A stretch of 64,000 nt of DNA. Origin: Anderseniella sp. (GTDB taxonomy: Bacteria > Pseudomonadota > Alphaproteobacteria > Rhizobiales > Aestuariivirgaceae). A program made the position numbers and the translations under genes. The stretch is taken from NCBI GenBank assembly GCA_028289645.1, contig JANQOK010000015.1:62001-126000 (forward strand), written 5' to 3'. The notes under the pieces are model-generated. The model was not told where the DNA came from. It did no database searches and worked only from the letters and a program-made list of their open reading frames with translations. Each line of letters opens with the position of its first letter. Positions within the stretch are counted from its first letter, which is position 1. Below, one piece after another: positions 20,340-22,616 of the stretch.

Positions 20340-20852
20340 TCACGGTACCTCGACCAGACCCGTACGCCCACAGATAAAATCGGCAAGTGCAAAAATATCG
20401 TCACGATCGTAGACCGGAACCGGACAGTCGCTGACCTCGCCATTGGCGGCAACGGCAACGATAGTCTGGTCTTCGTCGCTCAGTTTCGGGTTGTCATTGT
20501 CCAGATTGCGCACCTCGATCTTGTCATGACCATCGCGCTTGTAGCCTTCCACGATCACCAGGTCGCACGGATCCAGTTTTGCCAGCATGTCGTCGAGCGA
20601 CGGTTCCGGATCATCCCGCAGTTCGGAGATCACCGCCCAGCGATGCCGCGAAACCACCGCCACTTGCGCTGCACCCGCCGACCGGTGACGAAAGCTGTCG
20701 CGGCCCTCGTGATCGATGTCGAAGGAATGGTGGGCGTGCTTGATCGTCGACACCCGGTAACCGCGGCCGGTGAGCTCGGCCACCAGTTTTTCCACCAGCG
20801 TGGTCTTGCCGGCGTTCTTGAACCCGGCCACTCCGATAACCCGCTGTGTCAT
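20340..20852 (-). CDS. mobB: molybdopterin-guanine dinucleotide biosynthesis adaptor MobB
   Basis: A P-loop GTPase of 170 residues. The Walker A motif GVAGFKNAGKTTLVEKL starts near residue 6, and DPCDLVIVEGYKRDGHDKIEV matches the MobB family. It helps MobA convert Mo-molybdopterin to its guanine dinucleotide form used by formate dehydrogenase. It overlaps mobA by 4 nt (ATGA) and is followed at 4 nt by moeA. Confidence 0.93.
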   Translation of the reverse strand: MTQRVIGVAGFKNAGKTTLVEKLVAELTGRGYRVSTIKHAHHSFDIDHEGRDSFRHRSAGAAQVAVVSRHRWAVISELRDDPEPSLDDMLAKLDPCDLVIVEGYKRDGHDKIEVRNLDNDNPKLSDEDQTIVAVAANGEVSDCPVPVYDRDDIFALADFICGRTGLVEVP

Positions 20853-21475
20853 GCCGCCAGCTCTTTCGCAATACGTTCGGCTTCCGGCACATCATCGGGC
20901 CGGTTAACGTTGAAAAACGGATCAAAGCCGCTGGCCGTGAACTCCACCGCAACCAGCTTGTGCCGCGCCGTCCACACATCGACCTTGCGGATGTCCTCGT
21001 CCACCAGGGCCGACTGCAGATCATCCTTCAGCCGCACCGGCCACAGGCCGAAGACCGGATGATGGCGTCCGGCAGAGGCCGCGCACGCCATGTCCGCTTG
21101 CTGGTCGTCGATTGCCGCCAACAGCCGGCTGACAAAATCGGTTGGGAAAAACGGTGTATCGGTTGCCGCCGTCGCCACCCAGTCGGCGTCGGGAGCGTGT
21201 TCCGCCGCCCACGACAACCCGGCCAGCACCCCGGCCAGCGGCCCGGCAAACCCGTCGACTGTATCCGGCATGACCGGCAGGCCATAGGCGGCAAAGCGGT
21301 CCGGATCGCCGTTTGCATTGAGTATCAGTGAGCCGACCTGTGCCCCGAACCGGTCAATGACGTGATCAAGAACCGGGCGCCCGGCCAGGTCGATCAGGCC
21401 CTTGTCGCCGCCACCCATGCGCCGGGCAAGGCCGCCGGCAAGTATGCAACCAACGACTTTAGGACCAGAAACCAT
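20849..21475 (-). CDS. mobA: molybdenum cofactor guanylyltransferase
   Basis: Transfers GMP from GTP to molybdopterin. The nucleotide-binding motif GCILAGGLARRMGGGDKGL lies at residues 9-27, followed by DTPFFPTDFV. The start ATG at 21475 is unusual: its first codons (MVSGP) lie inside the left arm of a 271-bp inverted-repeat element, so the current N-terminus was set by that insertion. An upstream in-frame ATG at 21517 would extend further into the element. No convincing Shine-Dalgarno is visible. It is the downstream neighbour of fdhD across the element. Confidence 0.9.
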   Translation of the reverse strand: MVSGPKVVGCILAGGLARRMGGGDKGLIDLAGRPVLDHVIDRFGAQVGSLILNANGDPDRFAAYGLPVMPDTVDGFAGPLAGVLAGLSWAAEHAPDADWVATAATDTPFFPTDFVSRLLAAIDDQQADMACAASAGRHHPVFGLWPVRLKDDLQSALVDEDIRKVDVWTARHKLVAVEFTASGFDPFFNVNRPDDVPEAERIAKELAA

Positions 21476-21729
21476 TAATCTTATCCATTCTGCGGGAGAA
21501 TATTTTGCGTCTGACAAGGCGAAAGGGCGCAGGAAACCTGACGGTTTTCAAGGCCTTTCAACGCAGTCAGGGGCAAAATAGACCCCGCCCTTCGGGTTTG
21601 AAGGAAAACACCCGCCTGAAGGCGAAAAATGCTCGACAAGGCACAAAGCCTTGCCTTGCGCTGTTTCACCGTCATTCGAATGTTTTCCTTCAAACAGAAT
21701 TGCATAAGATTAATGGTTTCTGGTCCTAA
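21459..21729. repeat. 271-bp inverted-repeat element between fdhD and mobA (MITE-like)
   Basis: Perfect 26-bp terminal inverted repeats occur at 21459-21484 and 21704-21729, with a looser continuation inward (CATTCTG on the left, CAATTCTG on the right in mirror). Internal structure includes a perfect 15-bp inverted pair (21596-21610 with 21681-21695) and a small hairpin AAGGC-N5-GCCTT at 21639-21653. The arms carry outward-facing ATG GTT TCT GGT CCT. The left one is the mobA start, and the right outer edge provides the TAG stop of fdhD. No transposase is encoded. It looks like a non-autonomous element that inserted precisely at a gene boundary. Confidence 0.75.
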
Positions 21730-22616
21730 TCACCAGCCGCCCCCTTGCGCTGGTGCTTGCGGTCCTCGTCCTCGACCTGGGACACATCGGCATCGAACTC
21801 GATGCGCTCCGCACCTGACAGCGCCAGGAAGCGTTTGCCGCGGGCCCGGCCGATCACCGTCATGCCTACCTGGCGGGCCAGATCGACACCCCAGGCGGTA
21901 AACCCGGAACGCGACACCAGGATAGGGATGCGCATGGCGGCGCACTTGAGGATCATTTCGGAGGTCAGCCTGCCTGTGGTGTAGAAAATCTTATCGTCCG
22001 GAGACACCTTGTTGAGGAACATCCAGCCGGCAATCTTGTCAACGGCATTGTGCCGGCCGACGTCTTCCAAGTAGACCAGCGGCGTATCGCCCTGGCACAG
22101 CACGCAACCATGAATGGCGCCTGCCTTCAGATACAGCGACGGGGCAGTATTGATCTTCCGGGTCAGCGCATAAAGCCACGATGTCCTGATGCGCGCATCC
22201 GCCGACAGGCGGATGGTCTCGAAATTCTCCATCATGTCCCCGAACACCGTGCCCTGCGCACAGCCGGAAGTGCGGGTTTTCTTCTTCATTTTCTCTTCGA
22301 AGTTGGTCTCGCGCACCGTGCGCACAACAATCACTTCCAGCTCATCATCGTAATCGATGCCGGTGATCTCGTCGTCGGGCTGCAGCATGCCCTGATTCAG
22401 CAGATAGCCCACCGCCAGCCAGTCGGGATGATCGCCGATGGTCATCGACGTGACGATCTCCTGGGCATTGAGATAAATCGTCAGCGGGCGTTCGTGGACC
22501 ACATGAGTATCGGTTTCCGCGCCGCTCTGATCGATACCGGTCACCGCGCGCGACAGGCGCTCATCGTCCGGGTCGGGCACGATGGCAAATTCCGATATGT
22601 CGCGCGGCGTGTTCAT
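21726..22616 (-). CDS. fdhD: formate dehydrogenase accessory sulfurtransferase
   Basis: FdhD passes sulfur from a cysteine desulfurase to the molybdenum or tungsten cofactor of formate dehydrogenase. The 296-residue protein has the family segments ERPLTIYLNAQEIVTSM, YLLNQGM and EDVGRHNAVDKIAGW. The mobile-loop motif that is normally CxxC appears as SGCAQGT with one Cys (Cys119); a different CxxC occurs at Cys171-Cys174. The start overlaps the MOSC gene by 4 nt. The TAG stop is supplied by the adjoining inverted-repeat element, and the last ~15 residues are charged and may be altered by it. Confidence 0.9.
   Translation of the reverse strand: MNTPRDISEFAIVPDPDDERLSRAVTGIDQSGAETDTHVVHERPLTIYLNAQEIVTSMTIGDHPDWLAVGYLLNQGMLQPDDEITGIDYDDELEVIVVRTVRETNFEEKMKKKTRTSGCAQGTVFGDMMENFETIRLSADARIRTSWLYALTRKINTAPSLYLKAGAIHGCVLCQGDTPLVYLEDVGRHNAVDKIAGWMFLNKVSPDDKIFYTTGRLTSEMILKCAAMRIPILVSRSGFTAWGVDLARQVGMTVIGRARGKRFLALSGAERIEFDADVSQVEDEDRKHQRKGAAGD

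Follow-up and report, generated by a model that had tools for sequence, protein, structure and literature searches.

An inverted-repeat element between fdhD and mobA in Anderseniella that preserves a stop codon and probably provides a start codon

The fdhD-mobA junction

The window, a stretch of 64,000 nucleotides from Anderseniella sp., carries on its minus strand a gene set in which Pfam identified a MOSC-domain gene, fdhD, mobA and mobB, with NCBIfam in agreement for fdhD and mobA. An inverted-repeat element is located between fdhD and mobA, with the features listed below (the minus strand is taken as sense for the element).

20849..21475, minus strand: mobA with its putative element-borne start (matches to NTP_transf_3 and TIGR02665)
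21459..21487: left arm, bearing a Shine-Dalgarno-like GGA and an ATG that read outward on the minus strand
21460..21461: left TA target duplication (mobA side), one of the 2 TA copies that bracket the element
21462..21726, minus strand taken as sense: body of the miniature inverted-repeat element (MITE), 265 bp between the TA copies, member of a multi-copy family
21473..21475, minus strand: ATG read as the mobA start (MVSGPKVVGC...), in the place of the GTG/ATG starts of relatives
21492..21588: left internal hairpin, from folding and covariation
21596..21695: right internal hairpin, from folding and covariation, the core of covariance model R1 (21589-21700)
21701..21729: right arm, bearing the base that re-forms the fdhD stop
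21726..21728, minus strand: fdhD stop TAG, with T and A from the target and G from the element
21727..21728: right TA target duplication (fdhD side), the other of the 2 bracketing copies
21726..22616, minus strand: fdhD (FdhD-NarQ match), which ends inside the right arm with TAG

The terminal inverted repeat spans 29 nt (arms 21459-21487 and 21701-21729) and is 97% complementary, and its outer 26 nt are perfect, as had been stated in the original prediction. Position and frame also bear out that the right arm contains the TAG that ends fdhD, and the left arm the ATG and first codons (MVSGP) of mobA, whose frame exits the arm as ATG GTT TCT GGT CCT AAA GTC. An ATG in the same outward frame (ATG GTT TCT GGT CCT) is present in both arms, again as predicted. 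Both arms of this copy deviate identically from the family consensus (AGGACCAGAAACC for AGGGTCAGGACCC), which looks like the result of copying between the arms. No transposase gene was found in the element (about 270 bp), which agrees with the earlier reading of the sequence; the frames of at least 80 amino acids that touch it are mobA, the end of fdhD and one frame that exits antisense to fdhD.

We compared the junction to relatives that lack the element, a check for which the original prediction had called. In all five congeners compared, the element is absent and fdhD and mobA overlap directly, with mobA starting as GTGAATAAG, GTGACTAAC, ATGAATGAT, ATGACGGTTAGG and ATGACTGAG. The fdhD gene ends with TAA in the first two of these (GTGAATAAG, GTGACTAAC), where the uninterrupted junction contains a single TA, and with TGA, TAG and TGA, within a few bases, in the other three. 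The flanks in the window correspond to GTGAT-TA-AAGTC with the TA present twice, which indicates that the element was inserted into the TA of the fdhD stop codon, inside the gene overlap. The stop before insertion would thus have been a TAA at the target TA, of which the element altered only the third base (TAA to TAG). The claim that the element supplies the fdhD stop is accordingly correct in that the TAG is located in the arm but not in that a new codon was gained, as the inferred TAA at the same TA merely became TAG. The old GTG start of mobA was cut off by the insertion and persists beside the right edge, on the far side of the element. Judged by these features, the element at the fdhD-mobA junction is one copy of a dispersed, transposase-less MITE, inserted into a gene overlap with duplication of the target TA.

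Distribution of the element family and a candidate transposase

The genome from which the window was taken contains five full or nearly full copies, including the copy in the window, to which the other four are 92-94% identical. Three more pieces are located at contig ends; two of them share 109 nt and probably represent a single copy that was split in the assembly. The ends of contigs C2, C5 and C6 in this assembly (G000) fall inside copies of the element. Within the genus, copies were identified in five of the six genomes, the exception being G003. The search with the arms, proposed earlier as a test, thus recovered many copies, a number of them with left ends fused in frame to different genes.

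Anderseniella is placed in the Parvibaculaceae, Hyphomicrobiales. Matches were obtained in 11 of the 60 genomes of the family sample (five of the genus and six others), with short pieces only in G019 and G052. One other genus (G006, G015) contains full-length relatives at about 70-75% identity, and G014 contains more diverged ones. A covariance model built from the right hairpin matched 25 of the 199 genomes and 20 of the 100 genera in the order sample, the genome of the window included (E 1e-4), and a single genome besides that of the window among the 289 of the class sample (E 1e-6). No copies were found on plasmids in searches with three different queries. Copies with clear edges at the level of the order are mostly 265-273 bp long and have TAGG ends.

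Most copies are located at Y-TA-R sites, and both ends begin with TAGG. Comparison with empty sites demonstrates the TA duplication at fdhD-mobA and at two other loci (L011, L026); at a fourth locus (L055) one of the two TA copies is now CA, and the flanks of most other copies agree. The features of MITEs are thus all present: terminal inverted repeats, short length without a transposase, dispersal to non-orthologous sites together with empty sites, and target-site duplication. By these sequence characters, the elements are a MITE family that is new to the literature searched, with an unusual and strongly kept fold.

Several deviating copies were observed. A piece in another genus (L146; G014:C288) shares 92% identity with the copy in the window, over positions 85-270 of the latter, as compared to only about 69% for the other copies there, and represents either a recent transfer or contamination. 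Four shorter relatives in G006 and G014 (L162, L163, L167, L168) match the left half of the element only. A high-copy subfamily in G096 and G199 (L213, L214, L217, L228-L230, L234, L235) has ends like TAGGTCATGAACTCAT, in which an in-arm stop closes the ATG frame, so that no start can be donated from that ATG.

A pattern search with the arm identified an 848-bp IS5-family element in G002 that has the terminal sequence of the MITE, with the ends TAGGGTCCGGACCCAATAA and TAGGGTCCGGACTCATTA. It encodes a two-frame IS5-type transposase, the second frame of which scored 148 bits against NF033580 (transpos_IS5_3), while the first scored 109, with a cut-off of 110. Similar elements with nearly the same ends were found at C-TA-G sites on two alphaproteobacterial plasmids. 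IS5-family elements of the NF033580 type thus share with the MITE their ends, which begin with TAGGGTCCGGAC and are located at C-TA-G sites, but they are about 848 bp long and contain a transposase, whereas the MITE has none and has only the ends in common with them. Neither a DUF4096-type transposase nor a homolog of the G002 transposase (E 1e-10) was found in the genome of the window, and the six genus genomes contain one such element (G002) and one partial DUF4096 match (G003). Since a matching transposase is absent from the genome of the window, the link between the MITE and the IS5 family rests on the shared ends and the TA targeting, and the element may be immobile in that genome.

Stop and start codons at the edges of the copies

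The first loci gathered contained 47 distinct copies, of which 44 were aligned (alignment A2), with L043 and L118 (cut) and L072 (diverged) left out. The relation to neighboring genes was analyzed for 53 copies from Anderseniella and its family, obtained from 57 by removal of L047, L051 and L106 (same insertion as L004) and L160 (cut). An assessment of genes that run into an edge was possible at 49 right and 51 left edges. The gene calls relied on the length of the frame together with a codon score above 0.1, criteria set once, after the pattern had been noticed, with a codon table trained on the genome of the window only. Two of the copies (L164, L165) have a common flank and may be one locus.

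Among the coding frames that run into the right edge, 14 of 15 do so in the frame of the TAG (p about 2e-6 against an expectation of 1/3), and the TAG is intact in 12 of these 14 cases and mutated in two. The frames that run into the left edge are distributed 3, 1 and 1. Because both ends begin with TAGG, a stop codon that is hit at its TA is kept as TAG.

A total of 26 coding frames leave the left edge, 15 in the frame of the ATG and 5 and 6 in the other two (binomial p 0.009 for frame), as compared to only three that leave the right edge (1, 2 and 0 by frame; p 8e-6 for the bias between sides). The products of the in-frame genes are unlike one another and include, in addition to MobA, an ABC permease, Sua5, a beta-lactamase-fold enzyme, an Asp/Asn hydroxylase, a FixG-like protein, an ABC ATPase, two aminotransferases, a BrkB-like protein, an inositol phosphatase, an AMP-binding enzyme and a semialdehyde dehydrogenase. 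Of the 14 in-frame products scanned besides MobA, 12 matched Pfam families and two had no Pfam match. Read outward, the left end is GGA-N8-ATG followed by four codons and part of a fifth, so that a gene parted from its own start can gain an in-frame ATG. GGA is a weak Shine-Dalgarno core. It is present at one end only, since the ends differ at a conserved position (TGGA at the left end in 50 of 53 copies, TGCA at the right end in 47 of 53), a difference that fits a one-sided use of the left end as start donor. Although the same-frame ATG is present in both arms, in this lineage it is the left end that serves as start donor. The left ATG is intact in 14 of the 15 in-frame copies, as compared to 26 of the 38 others (p 0.08), which is weak evidence for selection on the ATG itself.

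At three of the four loci that could be compared with empty sites, the native start was lost, namely at fdhD-mobA, at a gene for an AMP-binding enzyme (L011) and at a gene of the Sua5/YrdC type (L055). At L011, the target was ATGGC-TA-ATCAC and the native ATG was cut off; the same site in G002 contains a 65-bp, internally deleted remnant of the element in which both the TAG and the in-frame ATG are retained. At L055, insertion at codons 5-6 changed MSHVT-K to MGPDP-K. At the fourth locus (L026, a class III aminotransferase), the native Shine-Dalgarno sequence and ATG remain downstream, and the arm ATG is not needed. Native-looking ATGs are also located within a few bases of the edge at L054 and L104, among others, and an in-frame arm ATG alone is hence no proof that a gene depends on it.

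Two further observations concern the neighboring genes. The copies at L004, L047, L051 and L106 are one insertion common to four species, at which an ABC permease gene starts at the arm ATG, and, in the three copies with enough flank, the arm TAG closes the upstream gene. A second MITE in frame with a mobA start (MGPGPKVVGC) was found at a contig end (L033; G001:C42), flanked on the opposite side by an unrelated gene, and was left out of the start count because the flank was too short. This may be a contaminant strain, a rearrangement or a misjoin; G001 is 7% contaminated.

In the order sample, 60 of the covariance-model matches listed were taken, of which 56 had both edges and 51, from other families, were used. 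Insertion in the stop frame was observed for 16 of 21 frames, balanced in orientation (8 right, 8 left). Only 4 of 13 left-edge frames are in the ATG frame, as expected by chance. By these counts, start donation does not characterize the superfamily as a whole but is confined to the Anderseniella lineage and close relatives. The proposal that the element supplies the mobA start thus gained support from the many copies, several of which have left ends in frame with different genes, but does not extend to the order. Taken as a whole, the idea of a start- and stop-supplying element was mostly right about the start, for this lineage, and had to be corrected for the stop.

The fold, its possible origins and the meaning of the family

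The predicted fold consists of a terminal stem and two long hairpins. The folded strands are 12.9 and 13.4 SD below shuffles, each for a single strand of the element, and this result, together with the further copies in the same genome, argues that the inverted-repeat structure is not due to chance. In an alignment of 27 family copies (A3, including the diverged or cut L071, L072 and L160), 104 pairs are common to the predictions for both strands, with 92.2% of the cells paired and two-sided changes at 58 of the 104 pairs, as compared to 17-29 pairs in slid controls. In an alignment of 32 copies (A5; 27 order-sample and 5 family copies), 93.5% of the cells are paired and 83 of 101 pairs have two-sided, compensatory changes, with 31-43% and 38-44 pairs in slid controls. 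The paired percentages are inflated, because the alignments scored had also served to derive the structure, which does not by itself explain the two-sided changes. In the order alignment, G-U and A-C departures occur in similar numbers (GU 95 and AC 87 cells), so that nothing points to selection on one RNA strand. A strand-specific RNA signal was likewise absent from the covariation of the family alignment (GU 84 and AC 65 cells). Either the DNA fold is selected, or the arms are homogenized by template switching, or both. Mean conservation is similar for paired (0.78) and unpaired (0.76) columns, but conservation reaches 90% or more in 23 unpaired columns of the order alignment, which favors some selection. 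Strict upkeep of the fold after insertion was not seen at the insertion shared by four species (L004), where 11 of 20 changed pair-cells are broken, as compared to 40% on average when sets of four other copies are drawn at random. At this insertion, the element is nevertheless better conserved (89-96% identity) than its flanks (82-93%) in five of the six pairs, and the value for the sixth pair lies between those of its two flanks.

We consider it very probable, on the strength of the sequence comparisons, that the element is a non-autonomous DNA transposon (MITE) of a Hyphomicrobiales family that preserves the stop into which it inserts and whose left end can give a start. It would be moved in trans by an IS5-family transposase, its copies would survive in tight operons mainly with the left end toward the downstream gene, and translation of mobA would start at the ATG of the arm. 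The fold, equal on both DNA strands, is probably kept for mobility or for harmless persistence, and arm-to-arm copying during replication may aid its upkeep. In the full RNA, the arm ATG would lie within a 25-bp stem, and initiation there should be hindered. More speculatively, the closed terminal stem might set the fdhD stop beside the mobA start in the mRNA and thereby keep them coupled. A stronger version, in which the element is a translation-junction cassette adapted to sit unnoticed between operon genes of Anderseniella and relatives, with the stop re-formed and the body bringing it beside its own ribosome site and start so that coupling survives a 270-nt insertion, seems to us rather doubtful; if true, a fold kept at the DNA level across the order would add a structural requirement that is new for MITEs moved by DDE transposases.

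It is possible, if somewhat questionable, that this is an ordinary MITE in a gene junction, with stop and start as by-products of TA targeting and a chance ATG in the arm, filtered by survival and without adaptation of the element. The ATG is after all present in both arms, and its retention is not significantly higher in the in-frame copies (p 0.08); outside the family insertion in the stop frame occurs without orientation bias (16 of 21 frames) and in-frame starts at chance level. Against this, mostly one end donates starts within the family (26 frames vs. 3), the TGGA is kept at the start-donor end alone, and the deleted remnant retains its in-frame ATG. A similar question concerns the covariation, which could be mainly mutational, with template switching copying arm onto arm and no selection on the fold. 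We rate this somewhat below an even call: both arms of the copy in the window depart jointly from the consensus, no strand is preferred, and template switching is described, in excerpts of a published study, as able to create and maintain hairpins (PMC8794818). Against this, certain unpaired columns show conservation of 90% or more across the order, and the two ends still differ by TGGA vs. TGCA, a kind of mismatch that copying between the arms would remove.

That the element is transcribed as a regulator, with an RNA fold that attenuates or terminates transcription between fdhD and mobA or is cut there by RNase III, is unlikely. The fold is very stable, and three terminator-like matches (stems with T runs) were found at two places on the sense strand, vs. 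0.6 expected; pneumococcal repeats are also said, in the excerpted source, to be likely to affect co-transcribed genes (PMC3049150). The compensatory changes, however, show no preference for pairs possible only in the sense RNA (GU 95, AC 87), and no Rfam match reached the gathering score, the five matches at a permissive threshold all being far below the cut-offs. No sigma-70-like promoter was found. It is highly improbable that the element is skipped by the ribosome or by RNA processing and that mobA still starts at the old GTG; this codon does still adjoin the right edge, and the fold is compact, but the arm ATGs that stand in frame with several genes, and in the deleted remnant, would then be unnecessary.

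We also compared the window MITE to known repeats, as described in excerpts of the respective papers. Three copies of MITEAba12 in Acinetobacter could supply the first four residues (MQQS) of the neighboring gene (PMC6382973). This is likewise a non-autonomous inverted-repeat element with start fusion, but it is 113 bp long, has a weak predicted fold and three fusions, and no paired stop and start pattern is described in the excerpts (PMC6382973). BOX repeats in Streptococcus pneumoniae encode the stop codon of 36 annotated genes and resemble the window MITE as folded repeats that supply stops, but they are modular and belong to another host, and no systematic start donation to conserved genes is described in the excerpts (PMC3049150). 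The RU repeats of enterobacteria and the Correia elements are MITE-like and fused to reading frames, but by internal open frames, whereas the window MITE bears its stop and start at its ends (PMC2759123, PMC2229807). QMITE1 and QMITE2 of Coxiella are MITEs with very stable predicted folds, and one QMITE2 forms the end of a protein; they belong to another host, are likened to the window MITE by description rather than by sequence, and neither start donation nor compensatory changes are described in the excerpts (PMC5896051). BOX, RUP, RIME and Correia repeats were considered by their descriptions. In the literature searched, which covered few subscription papers, we found no account of this element family and no family that systematically joins both end functions, and the same search returned no paper combining Anderseniella and MITE.

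The supply of stops by repeats, and of starts by a few of their copies, was thus already known, and here one family appears to do both, at unrelated genes, mostly in one orientation and with empty sites at four loci for comparison. This suggests a way for mobile DNA to enter closely packed operons with both reading frames apparently intact and, for enzymes such as MobA and Sua5, would alter the actual N-terminus. The family also lends itself to a clean test between selection on the fold of a MITE and its origin as a by-product of template switching.
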